Shown here one piece after another: positions 735 to 60,899 of a stretch of DNA of 64,000 nucleotides. The stretch is from Nitrososphaerota archaeon (GTDB lineage: Archaea > Thermoproteota > Nitrososphaeria > Nitrososphaerales > Gagatemarchaeaceae): contig JAFLYY010000001.1 in assembly GCA_029785825.1 (NCBI GenBank), positions 1,395,374 to 1,459,373 on the forward strand, written 5' to 3'. Position 1 is the first letter of the stretch. Each line of letters opens with the position of its first letter. The position numbers were made by a program, and so were the translations under genes. The notes below the pieces were generated by a model that saw nothing but the letters and a program-made list of their open reading frames with translations, was not told the origin of the DNA and did no database searches.

Positions 735-2024
735 TTAAAGATTGCGCCGGCCCGGACCGGCGGTCATGCGTCGTAGGGCCTCTTCGAGGGGGATCAGCTC
801 TTCCTTACGGCTGTTCATATCCCGTATCGTAACCGAACCCGCTTTTACCTCTCTCTCCCCGAGGATGATCACCCATGAGGCGCCTAGGCGGCTCGCATCC
901 TCCATCTGCTTGGACAGGGGCTTCCGTTGTAGCGATATCTCGCATGGGACTCCGCCGTCGATCGCTGCCCTTCTCACCTTCAGGGCCTCGCCAATGAGGC
1001 CTTCTCCTGCTATCGCGACGTAAGCGAGGAGCCCCGGAGGCCTGCCCTGGGCAGACATGGAGATGGCCATGCGTTCCACTCCTCCCGCAGCGCCGGTCGC
1101 GGACAAGTCGGGGCGCCCGAACAGCCTAGGGAGGGCGTCGTACCTACCGCCGCCGAAAAGGGACCCGAGCCTGGGGTTCCTGCTGTCGACTGCTTCGAAC
1201 ACGATCCCGGTGTAGTAGTCAATCCCCCTCACTACGCTCATGTTGTACTCGACGTTTTTGACCCCCCTCGAGTCGAGCGTGTCCGCGAGGGTGACAAGAT
1301 CCCCCGCCGACTCCAGCTTGAGCTCTTGCGCCCTGGCGAGGACGTCGTCGGGTCTGCCGCGCAGCCTGCCGAACTCGAGGAGCTTCTCCACCTGCTCTGT
1401 TCCGAATCCTCGTTGGACGTACTCGTCCGTAAGCTCCTCAGGCGGCTTCTTCTCCACCTTGTCCAGGGCGCGCATCAGGTCGAGGACGCGCTCGTCTTCC
1501 GCAATCCCTATCTTCTTCCGGATGAAATCTTCCACCACGCGCCTGTCCCCCACCTTCACAGTCGTCTCTGCAAGGCCCGCCAGCCTGAGTATGGCCGACG
1601 CTGCGTCGATTACTTCAGCGTCAGCTTCGACAGACGGGGGCCCGAACATCTCCAAGTCCCACTGGTGGGCCCACCTGTACCTGCCATACTGGGGCTCGTC
1701 GTACCTCCAGATTCCGCCGAAGGCCGAAAGCTTCACTGGGAGTCGTACCCCCTTTCGGGAGCAGACGTACCTCGTGATCCCTACGGTCAGGTCGAAGCGG
1801 AGCCCGATATCTCGCCCTCCCTTGTCTTTGAAAGAGTAGATCTCCTTGTCTATGGCCTCCCCGCTCTTCACCCTGAGGACTGCCAGATGCTCCAGCGATG
1901 CGGGCTCCATCACTTGGAAGTTGTAGAGCCGCGATGCTTCGTCGAAGGCGTCCCTGATTCTCGCATGGACCGCGTATGTGGAGGGCTCGATGTCGTCGAC
2001 TCCCCTTGGAAGGGCGAGGTCCAA
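735..2024 (-). CDS. hisS: Histidyl-tRNA synthetase
   Basis: A 429-residue class II aminoacyl-tRNA synthetase of normal HisRS length that charges tRNA-His with histidine. Seen in order: LPRGVDDIEP at the N-terminus, RFDLTVGITRYV (motif 1 region), IWRYDEPQYGRYRWAHQWDLEMFG with the motif 2 loop, the histidine-specific VVRGIDYYTG and a glycine-rich GRYDALPRLF stretch, then motif 3 around GGVERMAIS. The C-terminal domain (about residues 325-415) is the anticodon-binding fold. The start is TTG at 2024, one base from the stop of rfcS, so the two are almost certainly co-transcribed and perhaps translationally coupled. Confidence 0.95.
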   Translation of the reverse strand: MDLALPRGVDDIEPSTYAVHARIRDAFDEASRLYNFQVMEPASLEHLAVLRVKSGEAIDKEIYSFKDKGGRDIGLRFDLTVGITRYVCSRKGVRLPVKLSAFGGIWRYDEPQYGRYRWAHQWDLEMFGPPSVEADAEVIDAASAILRLAGLAETTVKVGDRRVVEDFIRKKIGIAEDERVLDLMRALDKVEKKPPEELTDEYVQRGFGTEQVEKLLEFGRLRGRPDDVLARAQELKLESAGDLVTLADTLDSRGVKNVEYNMSVVRGIDYYTGIVFEAVDSRNPRLGSLFGGGRYDALPRLFGRPDLSATGAAGGVERMAISMSAQGRPPGLLAYVAIAGEGLIGEALKVRRAAIDGGVPCEISLQRKPLSKQMEDASRLGASWVIILGEREVKAGSVTIRDMNSRKEELIPLEEALRRMTAGPGRRNL

Positions 2025-2025
2025 G

Positions 2026-2973
2026 CTAGCCTTCCTTTTTCAGGCCGGCGAGCTGGGCGAGCATTGCGGTCAGCTGGAGCTCGGGCTGTGAACCCTGGAC
2101 GAGGCGGAAGTCATACTCCGCGAATATGGATACCGCCCTGGCCCGGTCGAACCCCTTCATCGAGCCGAGGGCTTCATAGGCGTACTTCAAGAAGTCCCTT
2201 TCAGGGACGCCGTAGACCCTTGTGAGCTCCACCATCTTTGTCCTAGCAGCTTCGAAGTCCCCTCCGAGGGCGGCCTCGATCACCGCCGCCACGCGGCCCT
2301 TTACGGCCGCTCCGGTCACAGACTTTACGGAGTCGACGGTCAGCTCCCCCGAGGCTGAAGCCGCCTGGAGCACGTTGATGGCCTGCCTCAGGTCACCCTG
2401 AGTCGCCTCGTATATCGCGGCAAACACCGAGTCTCCCGGATGCCTGAGCTTCTCCTTCCTGGATATCGACTTCAGATGGTCCGTCACAGAAGCCTCGTCG
2501 TAGCGCTGGAACCTGAATATGGCGCACCTGCTCTGGAGGGGCTCGATGATCCCCGAAGAATAGTTGCAGATGAGGATGAATCGGGTGTGCTCGGAGTTCT
2601 CCTCCATTATCCTGCGCAATGCTGTTTGCCCGTCTGACGTCATCTCGTCCGACTCGTCCAGTATGACCAGACGGTAGGGGACCCCTTCCCTCCGGTCCGC
2701 GAATCTTGCGAACGTCTTGATCCTCTCCCTCACGACGTCAATCCCCCTCTCGTCGGACGCGTTCAGAACGAGGGTGTAATCGCGCCAGTGCTCGCCGAGG
2801 ATCTGCTTCGCGATGATGACAGCAGTGGTAGTCTTACCAGACCCCGGCGGACCTGCGAAGAGCAGGTGTGGGAGCTGCCCCTTCTTCATGAGGAGGGCCG
2901 TCAGCCTCTGCTTTACTGCGGCCTGGTCGACAAGGTCCTCCAGGGATGACGGGCGGTACTTCTCAACCCACAT
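2026..2973 (-). CDS. rfcS: Replication factor C small subunit
   Basis: Encodes a 315-residue AAA+ clamp-loader small subunit, which with RfcL opens the PCNA ring at primer-template junctions. The N-terminus WVEKYRPSSLEDLV is the RFC signature; Walker A is GPPGSGKTTT, the sensor region LNASDERGIDVVRERIK follows, Walker B reads LDESDEMT (more often DEAD in this family), and the arginine-finger SRC box is present. The ATG at 2973 directly precedes WVEKYRP; an in-frame TTG at 2991 would add six residues. A TATA-like GATAAATACG lies upstream near 3041-3050, so it may have its own promoter. The large subunit is encoded separately at 21074-22246. Confidence 0.95.
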   Translation of the reverse strand: MWVEKYRPSSLEDLVDQAAVKQRLTALLMKKGQLPHLLFAGPPGSGKTTTAVIIAKQILGEHWRDYTLVLNASDERGIDVVRERIKTFARFADRREGVPYRLVILDESDEMTSDGQTALRRIMEENSEHTRFILICNYSSGIIEPLQSRCAIFRFQRYDEASVTDHLKSISRKEKLRHPGDSVFAAIYEATQGDLRQAINVLQAASASGELTVDSVKSVTGAAVKGRVAAVIEAALGGDFEAARTKMVELTRVYGVPERDFLKYAYEALGSMKGFDRARAVSIFAEYDFRLVQGSQPELQLTAMLAQLAGLKKEG

Positions 2974-14677: not shown

Positions 14678-16516
14678 ATGGTTCACCTCTCTGCGCCATT
14701 GAGCGGTTCCCCCATCGGTACGAGAATCAACCGGGTACTCCAACAGGGCTACCTTGCGAAATGGGTGGTAGTCGGCCTCCTGATCGGGAGCATCGCAGGA
14801 GTGGGGGCCGTCGGGTTCTACATCGCCATAGAACTCGTGAACAACCTGATGCTGGGAGGGATTACGGGGTTCTTTCCGCCAAACCCCGCCGGTGAGGCGG
14901 CTGCCCCGCTCACGGTACACCCCAACTTCCTCCTCATCCCGATTTCTACGATCATAGGGGGGGCGATTGCGGGATTCATAGTCTACCGCTTCGCCCCCGA
15001 GGCAGAAGGCCACGGGACTGACGAAGCGATCGCCGCATTTCACAGGCGGGACGGGAAGATCAGGAGAAGGATTCCGCTGGTGAAGGCGGCTGCCTCGGCG
15101 TTCACCATCGGGTCCGGAGGGAGCGGCGGAAGGGAAGGGCCGACCGCACAGATCGCCGCCGGTTTCGGGTCATTCATCGGTGACCTGCTCAAGCTCCCGG
15201 TCAAGGACAAACGGATAGCAGTAGCTGTGGGAATCGGGGCAGGGATAGGGTCGATCTTCAAGTCCCCCTTCGGCGGCGCCATCCTTTCAGGAGAGATACT
15301 GTACAGCGGAGGGGACTTCGAAGTGGAGGCCCTGATTCCGTCGTTCATCGCTTCCCCCGTCGGATACATAATATTCGCGTCCTACACAGGGTTCACTCCC
15401 ATATTCGGCTCCGGACTGACCTACTCGTTCAGCGACCCTAGGAGCCTCCTGATCTATGCCGCACTCGGGATCGTCTGTGGGCTCGTGGGACGGCTCCACA
15501 CGTACACGTTCTACTCGGTCAAGGACCTCTTCGCCCGGTTCCCCGTCACCAGGTATGCTAGACCCATGATAGGGGCGGCAGTCACTGGCATTATCGCGGT
15601 TTTCTTCCCCCAGGTGGTCGGCCTCGGCTACGGCTTCCTCCAGATCATGATCGACGGCAACCTTTCGCAGATAAGCGCCAACTACCTCGCCCTCCCCCTC
15701 CTGGCCGTCCTGGTCGCGGTAATCCTTCTGAAGATAACGGCCACGGCGTTCACCGTGGGTTCCGGAGGGAGCGCGGGCGTGTTCGCACCTTCGCTCGTGA
15801 TAGGGGGGTTCGTCGGTGCCGCTTTCTGGATCGTCATGAATGGGCTCCTCCCCGGATGGATACCTACCCCTGCACCGCTGGTCGTGGTCGGGATGATAGC
15901 CCTCTTCGGGGGGGTGGGCCGCGTCCCCATTGCCGTGATGCTGATGGTCAGCGAGATGACTGGGACCCTGAACTTGCTCCCGCCAGCGATGGTCGCCGTA
16001 GTCGCCGCCTACTTCATCACGACGCCGAAGTTCACCATCTACAGGAGCCAGGTCCTCAGAAGGTCGGACTCCCCGGCGCACAGAGGGGAGTACAACGTCC
16101 CACTCCTGACCAAGATCTTCGTATCAGACGCCATGAACCACTCGGTCTTCACCCTCTCCCCGACCGACACGGTGGCCTCCGCCTACCAGGTGGTGGTGGA
16201 AAAGGGATACCGGGGGATTCCGATAGTCGAAGCCGACAAGGTGATCGGAATCGTGACCGTTAGCGACCTTCAGAGGATACCTCGGGAGCAGATGGGGGGC
16301 ACACCGGTGAAGGATGTGATGACCCAGAACGTCATGGTCGCCCATTCTGACGACTCTCTGCTCACCGTACTGGAGATGATGACAAACCATGGGGTGGGCC
16401 GGCTCCCAGTCGTATCAGGGGAATCAGAGAGGCTTGTGGGCATCATAACTAGGACCGACGTGATACGGGCATATGAAAGGGCGGTGATGCTGATGTCGAA
16501 GTCGGAGCCCACATGA
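14678..16516 (+). CDS. ClC family chloride channel/antiporter with CBS domains
   Basis: A 612-residue ClC protein. About 440 residues form the membrane core: helix-rich N-terminus, EGHGTDEAI in the place of the GSGIP-type loop, the anion filter GREGPTAQI with the gating glutamate, and the second repeat with GGSAGVFAPSLVIGG. The C-terminal 140 residues are two CBS domains (VSDAMNHSVFTLSP and VKDVMTQNVMVAHS), which usually bind adenine nucleotides to control gating. The gating Glu suggests either a gated channel or a Cl/H exchanger. The ATG at 14678 is well placed. It stands alone, divergent from the radical SAM gene and convergent with the DUF47 gene. Confidence 0.93.
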   Translation: MVHLSAPLSGSPIGTRINRVLQQGYLAKWVVVGLLIGSIAGVGAVGFYIAIELVNNLMLGGITGFFPPNPAGEAAAPLTVHPNFLLIPISTIIGGAIAGFIVYRFAPEAEGHGTDEAIAAFHRRDGKIRRRIPLVKAAASAFTIGSGGSGGREGPTAQIAAGFGSFIGDLLKLPVKDKRIAVAVGIGAGIGSIFKSPFGGAILSGEILYSGGDFEVEALIPSFIASPVGYIIFASYTGFTPIFGSGLTYSFSDPRSLLIYAALGIVCGLVGRLHTYTFYSVKDLFARFPVTRYARPMIGAAVTGIIAVFFPQVVGLGYGFLQIMIDGNLSQISANYLALPLLAVLVAVILLKITATAFTVGSGGSAGVFAPSLVIGGFVGAAFWIVMNGLLPGWIPTPAPLVVVGMIALFGGVGRVPIAVMLMVSEMTGTLNLLPPAMVAVVAAYFITTPKFTIYRSQVLRRSDSPAHRGEYNVPLLTKIFVSDAMNHSVFTLSPTDTVASAYQVVVEKGYRGIPIVEADKVIGIVTVSDLQRIPREQMGGTPVKDVMTQNVMVAHSDDSLLTVLEMMTNHGVGRLPVVSGESERLVGIITRTDVIRAYERAVMLMSKSEPT

Positions 16517-16820: not shown

Positions 16821-17447
16821 TTACCTCAGTACTCCTCTCTTTATGTCCAATCTGTTCTGCTTGTCCAGCTTACTCGTTACAACGCGAAACGTAATCGTGA
16901 GGTCGCGGGCTCCATCAGCTACGGTGTCCAAGTTCCCCAAAACCCCGGTCAGCCAAAGGCGTTTCTCTATCTCGTAGCCCTTTCGAGAGGAGACCCTCGT
17001 GTAGTGACCCATGATCCGGTCCACCTCCTTCTCGCGCTCTACAATCACGGCGCAAGTCCTGTCCACCAAGGCCTTGTCCTTTCCAAGGTTCCGTACGCAG
17101 GTCGAGGTATCCTCCGCGAGATGCCGTATCTGCGATGCAGCGCTCTCAAGCAACTCAGACTCCTCCTCATCCAAGCTACGTCTCCACTCCAGAAGTAAGC
17201 ACGTCCGCTCAATGAGGTCCGACATCCTGTCCAACTCCCTCGCCATCTGAATAAAATGACCGGGGTCGATTGGGAAGACTTCTAGGTCCATGATGAGGCT
17301 CGCGGACTGGTCGAAGGCTGAATCCACGTCCTCTTCAATCCCTTTAACCTCACTCAGTTTCTTCTGCAAATCATGCTCAGTTGTCTTGGGGAGCGAGCGG
17401 ATCAGTTCAAGCATCCCTTCCGTCAGCTTGATGATTCCATCTGTCAT
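16821..17447 (-). CDS. DUF47/PhoU-like helical protein
   Basis: A 208-residue all-helical protein of the DUF47 (PhoU-like) family. The heptad-like acidic pattern, for example LSEVKGIEEDVDSAFDQ and ARELDRMSDLIERT, is typical of the metal-binding four-helix bundles of PhoU relatives. Many DUF47 proteins accompany a low-affinity phosphate transporter, but here it is the third gene behind crcB and DUF190 with a 35-base gap, suggesting it works with fluoride or anion stress instead, or is simply co-transcribed. Start is ATG at 17447. Its role in the cell is not clear from sequence. Confidence 0.75.
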   Translation of the reverse strand: MTDGIIKLTEGMLELIRSLPKTTEHDLQKKLSEVKGIEEDVDSAFDQSASLIMDLEVFPIDPGHFIQMARELDRMSDLIERTCLLLEWRRSLDEEESELLESAASQIRHLAEDTSTCVRNLGKDKALVDRTCAVIVEREKEVDRIMGHYTRVSSRKGYEIEKRLWLTGVLGNLDTVADGARDLTITFRVVTSKLDKQNRLDIKRGVLR

Positions 17448-17482: not shown

Positions 17483-17812
17483 TCAGAAGGCGTTGACCTC
17501 CTCAAGGGTGATCAGGCCGTTGGTTCCAACCATCTTCTTGACCGGCGCGAGCACTTCTTGGACTTTTTCGTATTCGCCAACAGTCTCAATGATGATCGGG
17601 AGATTGACTGACAGTCCGAGCACGTCAAACCTAGCCGCGCCGCGGACACCGTAACCTTTGACTCCCTGGACCACGGTAGCACCACCTATGCCGTGCTCCA
17701 CGTAAAGCGCGAGGAGTGAGTCGGCCAAGCCTTTCCCTCTGAACTGGTCATGTGATCGGGCTCTCACGGTGAGTTTCAACATCCGCTTCATCGGGGGCCT
17801 TGGTTCGGCCAC
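17483..17812 (-). CDS. DUF190 protein (PII-like) linked to CrcB
   Basis: A 109-residue protein of the DUF190 family, whose fold resembles the PII signalling proteins. Visible signature: DQFRGKGLADSLLALYVEHGIGGATVVQGVKGYG, then LPIIIETVGEYEKVQEVLAPVKKMV. DUF190 genes very often sit next to crcB and are thought to modulate the fluoride channel. The GTG at 17812 lies three bases past the crcB stop, so translation is likely coupled. It is transcribed behind a fluoride riboswitch, giving independent support for a fluoride-related role. Confidence 0.9.
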   Translation of the reverse strand: MAEPRPPMKRMLKLTVRARSHDQFRGKGLADSLLALYVEHGIGGATVVQGVKGYGVRGAARFDVLGLSVNLPIIIETVGEYEKVQEVLAPVKKMVGTNGLITLEEVNAF

Positions 17813-17815
17813 CTG

Positions 17816-18202
17816 CTAGCCGCCTCCCGCGATCAGCAGAACCACTGCCCTCCCAAGGAATATCGACAAGACCGAAAGTCCCAGGTTCAACCCCATGTCG
17901 GCGGCTGCCGTGATGAGCATCCCCGTGTCCATAAGGTTTGCAGACTCGAAGGCCAGCGAGGACATGGTGGTGAAAGAGCCGCAGAACCCTATGCCAAGCA
18001 AGAGCACGAAACCGCCGCCCAGGCCAAGCTTCTGGACCGCAGCCATGACGACGCCCAGTGCAAGGCTTCCGATGACGTTCACGGTTAGCACGGATAGTGG
18101 TAGGTTTCCCCAGAACATACTTCTGCTCGTGATGGCATAGCGTAGCGTAGCGCCGACCACAGCTCCCACCGCCACGTAAAGCAAATCGTATCTCAGATTC
18201 AA
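17816..18202 (-). CDS. crcB: CrcB/Fluc fluoride exporter
   Basis: A 128-residue protein with four membrane helices that forms a dimeric fluoride channel. The family motif GFCGSFTTMSSLAFE (usual GxxGxxTTFSTF) contains the fluoride-lining Phe/Ser/Thr track, and GATLRYAI is the N-terminal signature with the conserved Arg; VNVIGSLALG holds the pore Asn. The start is TTG at 18202, preceded by a GTGA Shine-Dalgarno-like sequence at 18207-18210. A fluoride riboswitch of the crcB type lies just upstream and can pair with the start region, so expression should rise when fluoride is present. Confidence 0.96.
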   Translation of the reverse strand: MNLRYDLLYVAVGAVVGATLRYAITSRSMFWGNLPLSVLTVNVIGSLALGVVMAAVQKLGLGGGFVLLLGIGFCGSFTTMSSLAFESANLMDTGMLITAAADMGLNLGLSVLSIFLGRAVVLLIAGGG

Positions 18203-18220
18203 CCGCTCACTTGTTTTTGT

Positions 18221-18276
18221 ATAGTAGAAGCTATTGGCCCGTTACGCACGAGCGGTTACGGCGAGCTTCACCGCCA
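18221..18276 (-). ncRNA. Fluoride riboswitch (crcB motif) with start-codon-sequestering platform
   Basis: Reading the minus strand: P1 is GGCG (18275-18272) with CGCC (18263-18260); the P1 loop holds GAAGCT (18269-18264), which pairs perfectly with AGCTTC (18232-18227) as the known pseudoknot; P2 is GCTC (18253-18250) with GGGC (18240-18237), preceded by AAC and followed by CAAT, then TAC after the pseudoknot. This matches the aptamer layout of the known bacterial crcB structure nearly element for element. The segment AACCGCTC (18257-18250), part of P2, is also complementary to GAGCGGTT (18208-18201), which covers most of the Shine-Dalgarno region and the first two bases of the crcB start TTG. 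Hence ligand binding should free the start: an ON switch for fluoride. Confidence 0.88.
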
Positions 18277-18298
18277 GAACAAGGGTTCTTGCGTTGGC

Positions 18299-18307
18299 AC
18301 TTAAACT
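18299..18307 (-). promoter_or_regulatory. TATA-like box for the fluoride operon
   Basis: AGTTTAAGT on the minus strand lies about 25 bases before the first base of the riboswitch P1 helix, predicting a transcript that begins with the aptamer. Confidence 0.45.
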
Positions 18308-18432
18308 GCTCGCCTGCGGGGGTCATAGCTCAATATACTGTCCAAGAAGTCAAACTGCCTTGGGCGGCCGCTTCGAATAGCCGGAGTCGACTTCTTTCTA
18401 TCACACGGAATCGATTATGAGCTATTTGATAA

Positions 18433-18523
18433 CGGGCCCGGTGGGATTCGAACCCATGGTCTCTGAGGCGCATGTCTTCAGCTCCGAAGGCTGACGCCTT
18501 AATCCGTGCTAGGCTACGGGCCC
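18433..18523 (-). tRNA. tRNA-Arg (TCG) with a 15-16 nt insertion in the variable loop
   Basis: The acceptor arm GGGCCCG/CGGGCCC with discriminator G, D-arm GCC...GGC, anticodon arm TCAGC-CTTCGGA-GCTGA (anticodon TCG) and T-loop TTCGAAT are all clear. The variable region between anticodon and T stems is 20 nt instead of about 5. An AGAC repeat (or CATG repeat) brackets a 15-16 nt extra stretch, as expected for a small non-canonical intron. Removing it leaves about 76 nt. The first T-stem pair is A-C. A long-arm Leu or Ser identity was considered, but the anticodon and D-arm fit arginine. Confidence 0.82.
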
Positions 18524-60809: not shown

Positions 60810-60899
60810 GGGCCGGTAGTTCAGCGGTACGAACGCCCGCCTTGCACGCGGGAGAACCCGAGGGTCCCAAGGTCGGGGGTTCAATTCCCCCCCGGTCCA
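60810..60899 (+). tRNA. tRNA-Ala (TGC) with a 17 nt insertion in the variable loop
   Basis: Acceptor GGGCCGG/CCGGTCC with the G3-U70 identity pair, anticodon arm CCCGC-CTTGCAC-GCGGG (anticodon TGC) and T-arm GGGGG-TTCAATT-CCCCC are complete, discriminator A. The variable loop has 22 bases instead of 5; 17 extra bases (60855-60871), ACCC-GA-GGGT forming a hairpin, look like an intron. Removal gives 73 nt. Confidence 0.88.

Follow-up and report, generated by a model that had tools for sequence, protein, structure and literature searches.

A putative translational fluoride riboswitch with a G6-C38 aptamer variant ahead of crcB in an archaeon of the class Nitrososphaeria

Introduction

Does the leader of crcB in this archaeon encode a fluoride riboswitch, and on which step of gene expression would such a switch act? 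The crcB or fluoride riboswitch class (RF01734) has long been known in bacteria and archaea (Weinberg 2010, PMC2864571). Very few natural archaeal riboswitches have a worked-out mechanism. A 2021 article presents the fluoride riboswitch of Thermococcus kodakarensis as the one natural archaeal riboswitch determined by experiment at that time and as presumably translational (PMC8241225). We address the question in a window of 64,000 nucleotides (the whole stretch of DNA analysed), in which a preliminary description had reported a fluoride aptamer and a start-hiding switch ahead of a crcB-DUF190-DUF47 operon. We consider it likely that this leader is a fluoride riboswitch turning on the translation of the crcB-DUF190-DUF47 message.

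A fluoride aptamer precedes the crcB operon

A permissive Rfam scan of positions 18100–18400 returned a single match among 4227 families: the minus strand at 18284–18218 aligned with the fluoride aptamer (RF01734) over the full model length (32.9 bits, E = 1.3e-7). The covariance search that the preliminary description had proposed as a check therefore found the expected family, but at a score 1.1 bits below the gathering cut-off of 34 bits, which is why scanning the window with default Rfam settings lists only tRNAs and no fluoride riboswitch. We retain the aptamer in the class because the cut-off is a threshold of curation rather than a structural feature; the low score reflects a penalty that includes a covarying site described below. 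Seven of the 15 matches from the window's family exceed the cut-off. The match at 18284–18218 is also the only one in the genome (E = 2e-7), and a search of viral contigs for the aptamer returned none.

Read on the minus strand, 18275–18224 has the order GGCG GUGAAGCU CGCC GUAACC GCUC GUGCGUAAC GGGC CAAU AGCUUC UAC. All of the aptamer elements named in the preliminary description are where it placed them on this strand, and P1, P2 and the pseudoknot can all form. The Rfam alignment and the sequence both identify the P1 hairpin (18260–18275; GGCG 18275–18272 with CGCC 18263–18260) and the pseudoknot between its loop (GAAGCT, 18269–18264, the 5' strand) and AGCTTC (18232–18227). Sequence reading adds P2 (GCTC 18253–18250 with its 3' strand GGGC 18240–18237), AAC (18257–18255) and, within 18224–18236, CAAU (18236–18233), AGCUUC and UAC (18226–18224). 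The core residues G8, A40 (18234), U41 (18233) and the linchpin U48 (18226) are also present (T. petrophila numbering). The window aptamer thus shares with the RF01734 class P1, P2, an H-type pseudoknot, this core and a position upstream of crcB, and differs from it in having G6-C38 instead of A6-U38 and in scoring just under the cut-off. The observation of a fluoride aptamer ahead of crcB is confirmed.

The operon proposed in the preliminary description was borne out by Pfam matches on the minus strand. The aptamer lies upstream of the predicted fluoride-resistance gene crcB (17816–18202; 128 amino acids when read from TTG 18202; PF02537, E = 6.4e-19), whose product, a Fluc fluoride channel, matches chains of Fluc crystal structures (best E = 7.3e-8) and has its named relatives in Thaumarchaeota, Nitrososphaeria and Bathyarchaeota MAGs. 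The genes that follow encode a DUF190 (PII-like) protein (17483–17812; PF02641, E = 2.8e-19) and a DUF47/PhoU-like protein (16821–17447; PF01865, E = 5.8e-6). DUF190 adjoins crcB across the window's family and beyond, and the full order, with DUF47 third, is shared by all five genus genomes that have crcB, the window's included. Of 31 genomes of the genus, only these five have crcB, and each has the aptamer; in a sixth genus genome (G330) the aptamer precedes a gene other than crcB.

A TATA-box-like TTTAA (18301–18305, minus strand) is located 30 nt 5' of P1 and is kept in relatives: of 13 listed family members, 12 have TTTAA or CTTAA at 29–32 nt ahead of P1. This spacing suggests that transcription starts a few nucleotides 5' of the aptamer, which would probably place it at the extreme 5' end of the message. 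Directly upstream of the predicted promoter is a tRNA gene (18433–18523, minus strand). In the Rfam alignment, this gene and another at 60810–60899 (plus strand) carry insertions of 16–18 nt 3' of the anticodon stem, which may be a long variable arm or an intron. On the other side, a gene for a CLC-type channel with two CBS domains (14678–16516) is convergent to the crcB operon.

A predicted switch helix excludes P2 and covers the start region

The strand that forms J1/2 and the 5' side of P2 in the aptamer (UAACCGCUCG, 18249–18258, minus strand) has a second potential partner, an anti-aptamer element (UGAGCGGUUG, 18200–18209, minus strand) predicted to sequester the start region. The perfect eight-base complementarity noted in the preliminary description is exact (AACCGCTC at 18257–18250 with GAGCGGTT at 18208–18201), and the helix AACCGCUC/GAGCGGUU extends to 10 pairs with G-U ends (18258–18249 with 18209–18200). 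This helix and P2 are mutually exclusive, and the helix covers the ribosome-binding and start region.

The same description had the sequestered segment span most of a Shine-Dalgarno region and the first two bases of a TTG start, and neither point is supported. The 3' end of the 16S rRNA (GATCACCTCCTTAG; anti-Shine-Dalgarno CACCUCC) has no complementarity to GAGCGG, which led us to reject GAGCGG as a Shine-Dalgarno sequence; the only match is a weak one (GUGA, 18210–18207), which is missing from relatives as well. A stretch of N lies near this 16S 3' end (L176:2893–2902), and the anti-Shine-Dalgarno itself is readable. The leader is therefore not of the Shine-Dalgarno-sequestering type, and a block of translation would be steric. 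The start codon is uncertain because the window sequence GAG CGG TTG AAT CTG AGA TAC GAT aligns with GAG CGG TTG AAA GTG AGA TAC GAC in G221, GAG CGG TTA GAA ATG CGA TAC in G331 and GAGCGGAAAAATGAGATAC in G198, an alignment that sets the start codon of the relatives against CTG at 18196–18194. Either TTG 18202 may have taken over as the start or CTG may be used; the predicted helix covers the ribosome landing region with both.

Fold energies are consistent with a switch between the two structures. For each family leader that carries GAGCGG, the lowest-energy local structure contains the OFF helix, and this fold lies 8.1–11.6 kcal/mol below the best aptamer secondary structure when the latter is counted without pseudoknot and ligand. 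When growth of the window transcript was simulated, the form with P1 and P2 remained the optimum to about 72 nt, and the OFF helix won from about 75 nt, when the aptamer is already complete. This is the order expected of a switch whose ligand has to bind in time, ahead of the synthesis of the anti-element. Transcripts of at least 111 nt give other long-range folds that involve the coding region, and at 120 nt the minimum-energy fold joins the pseudoknot strand to crcB codons. We set this last fold aside because the AGCT-containing coding stretch that it uses was not seen in relatives inspected by eye.

In the mechanism that we propose, the transcript would begin just 5' of P1, and the aptamer, comprising P1, P2 and the pseudoknot, would be the first structure to fold. 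If fluoride is absent, the newly made CGAGCGG-type element would pair with the P2 5' strand (AACCGCUCG), dissolving P2 and locking the ribosome landing site and start codon in a helix of 8–10 bp. With fluoride and Mg2+, the aptamer would be locked via A40-U48 and G6-C38 and AACCGCUC would stay in P2, leaving the start region free for synthesis of the fluoride channel. Very probably, the message adopts different folds in the presence and in the absence of fluoride, the start being hidden in the latter case.

A functional fluoride riboswitch could instead act on transcription, by termination or through RNA stability. The best characterised bacterial examples are indeed transcriptional (PMC13273304, PMC11077080), and an effect on mRNA decay would be compatible with the window sequence, but neither a poly-T run nor an intrinsic terminator is found between the aptamer and the start in the window. 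Furthermore, relatives carry the anti-element 4–13 nt ahead of their start codon, where a block of ribosome loading would be expected, and the archaeal example in the literature is presumed to act on translation (PMC8241225). We regard transcriptional control as unlikely and translational control as the better reading of the leader.

The predicted switch helix recurs and covaries among relatives

Taken alone, the window helix is borderline against chance. The best helix between aptamer and leader has −19.1 kcal/mol of stacking, a value matched in 5.5% of cases when the 60 nt downstream were dinucleotide-shuffled (p = 0.055), and we did not accept the 8-bp match of the window by itself as proof; the helix is significant only through its relatives. 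Of 12 distinct family leaders, 11 have an equivalent anti-helix of 8–11 bp, and in 10 of them it reaches p < 0.05 individually. G731 and G732, two leaders of the family that were read only once this rule had been formulated, both carry GCGAGCGG, GAGCGG and G6-C38, bringing the total to 13 of 14. An aptamer-only pattern identified three more aptamers in family f12, two of which have an equivalent element, as GAGCGG in G738 and in a shifted form (GGCGAGCG) that retains pairing with CGCUCGCC in G741 (L189). The element is absent from one leader of the window's family (G163) and one of f12 (G739), and both of these aptamers precede a cation/proton antiporter-like gene, not crcB.

The paired core is invariant inside the family because the aptamer fixes it, so the case for covariation rests on comparison with other families. 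The core reads CCGCUCG/CGAGCGG in the window's family (f1), CCGCCUC/GAGGCGG in f29, CCGCCCU/AGGGCGG in f25 and CCGCCUCC/GGAGGCGG in f21, and compensatory changes are seen across five further archaeal families. In well-represented families, each aptamer finds its best partner in the leader of its own family. For example, f1 aptamers average −18.4 with their own leaders, a value understated by one mis-anchored segment (G348; −6.6 instead of the correct −21.5), versus −8.9 to −14.5 with leaders of other families. The covariation gives strong but not conclusive support to the switch helix because the 3' register of the alignment was chosen by motif plus pairing and the null is not phylogenetic and ignores relatedness: the 22 aligned segment pairs have changes on both sides at four base pairs, with 33 double-change cells against 12.8 ± 3.5 after shuffling (0 of 500 shuffles), and sliding the partner by 1–3 columns reduces pairing from 89% to 32–57%. 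The element is ahead of the start codon in most members of the window's family and within the first codons in f29, f25 and two f42 leaders.

Such comparisons support the pairing of AACCGCUC with GAGCGGUU well, despite its modest significance in the window. The earlier proposal that the P2 5' strand and the region before the start form a helix exclusive of P2 is also supported, which favours a translational ON switch. Could GAGCGG be kept for another reason, such as a coding constraint or a protein site, and its pairing with a real aptamer be incidental? The invariant core and the borderline single-sequence statistic would fit this explanation, yet the element follows the P2 sequence of the aptamer from family to family through compensatory changes, and it still pairs where it is shifted, as in G741. 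A coding constraint is further at odds with most family members, in which the element is non-coding because it lies ahead of the start codon. Incidental pairing is quite improbable for these reasons, and we proceed with the switch helix as the preferred interpretation.

G6-C38 replaces a long-range pair of the aptamer

Positions 8, 40, 41 and 48 are G, A, U and U in all of 136 archaeal aptamers. Positions 6 and 38, which form a long-range reverse Watson-Crick A6-U38 pair in the structures (PMC8004769, PMC10687018), are A-U in 121 of them and G-C in the other 15, with no mixed case. In the window aptamer this pair is replaced, with full covariation, by G6 (18271) and C38 (18236) on the minus strand. 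Five further G-C aptamers raise the total to 141, still with no mixed case; the search pattern had fixed position 6 and left 38 free in three of the five, and G739 was read by eye. The window's family and the f12 members seen are fixed for G-C, and a single further case occurs in f20, which belongs to another order. The f20 aptamer has a different sequence context and precedes a different gene, suggesting that G6-C38 probably arose at least twice independently.

The exchange probably accounts for part of the sub-cut-off Rfam score in the window. We found no mention of it in the literature consulted, a set exclusive of the original structure papers and of the archaeal riboswitch papers, and it may already be known. 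Loss of fluoride binding in a decayed aptamer, through the replacement of A6-U38 by G6-C38, is very unlikely even with a score under the Rfam cut-off and an A6 that is near-universal in the consensus, since the residues at 8, 40, 41 and 48 are preserved, positions 6 and 38 never vary separately, every crcB-bearing genome of the genus retains the aptamer, and a reverse Watson-Crick pair can plausibly be G-C, as in the Levitt pair of tRNA. It is rather unlikely, too, that the G6-C38 aptamers are a functionally distinct subclass, altered in its affinity for fluoride or Mg2+ or in its thermal tuning, and that a branch with A at position 7 (L037, L036 and L035; ahead of uncharacterised genes) may respond to something other than, or besides, fluoride.

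An apparent second platform and other aptamers in related archaea

In families of the ammonia-oxidiser type (f2, f4, f11 and f14), GGUAGACA or GGUGGGCA is found right before the start and is complementary to the pseudoknot 3' strand (UGUCUAC or UGCCUAC). From their named relatives (Nitrosotalea, Nitrososphaeraceae), we infer that f2 and f4 are ammonia oxidisers. The letters of the two strands go together: 33 leaders combine UGU with GA, 24 combine UGC with GG (three of these within f2), and two have both UGU and GG, a combination that still allows G-U pairing; most of these helices are individually not significant. One aptamer class appears to be coupled to two different switch helices, one using the P2 5' strand and the other the pseudoknot 3' strand. 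Loci with GGUAGAC or GGUGGGC ahead of the start include L044, L045, L046, L050 and L051.

We also identified aptamers in other settings. Those with A rather than U at position 7 occur in G331 (two copies) and G330 ahead of genes other than crcB (L037:2183–2941; L036, about 2244–2311, minus strand; L035, about 1997–2065, minus strand). Two proteins encoded at L037 (92 and 159 amino acids) have no Pfam match, and on contig C55 of G331 a position-7-A aptamer is divergent to the crcB aptamer at a distance of about 100 nt. Two related genomes of the same order (G087 and G185; f2, g14) have six and eight fluoride aptamers, respectively, within about 20 kb (L098 and L099, G087:C37 54–73 kb; L100 and L101, G185:C57 26–48 kb). 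By eye, these aptamers precede genes resembling those for TFB, HyfC/NuoH, ferredoxin, cupredoxin, MFS and Lrp-type proteins, and the clusters resemble an island of fluoride-responsive genes that includes a transcription factor B of its own. In f25, f29 and f34, from other Thermoproteota (L146–L175), the aptamer is often ahead of a protein with repeated prenyltransferase/cyclase-like motifs (NDGGYTFC...SNAQDTYY), which is no obvious fluoride exporter.

Relationship to known fluoride riboswitches

The preliminary description had regarded a translational ON switch as noteworthy in such an archaeon. The case is less exceptional than that: RF01734 matches occur in 86 of 400 sampled genomes of the class Nitrososphaeria (and in 80 of 398 genomes of a phylum sample), and an archaeal translational example had already been reported. 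The T. kodakarensis riboswitch (Speed et al. 2018, as described in PMC8241225 and PMC11077080) is likewise archaeal, upstream of fluoride-export genes and presumed to be a translational ON switch; it belongs to another phylum. Translational fluoride riboswitches are also known in the bacteria Pseudomonas syringae and Burkholderia (PMC13273304, PMC8814607). They share with the window a non-terminating leader classed as translational; in the window, switching would use the P2 5' strand and no Shine-Dalgarno sequence. The crcB riboswitch of Bacillus cereus (PMC8752731, PMC11077080) has in common with the window the aptamer, the A40-U48 linchpin logic and a downstream strand that competes with the aptamer. 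Its transcription terminator displaces the pseudoknot strand, however, whereas in the window the P2 5' strand would be displaced and there is no terminator.

What is new here is a lineage-specific variant of the aptamer and a comparative case for its predicted switch helix; the sensor type is known, and the lineage carries a rare version of it. The exchange of A6-U38 for G6-C38 is a natural double mutant of a tertiary pair beside the fluoride site, and the compensatory changes make point-mutant tests straightforward. A single aptamer class would operate with at least two switch helices in these archaea, through the P2 5' strand in the window and five other families and through the pseudoknot 3' strand in the ammonia oxidisers.
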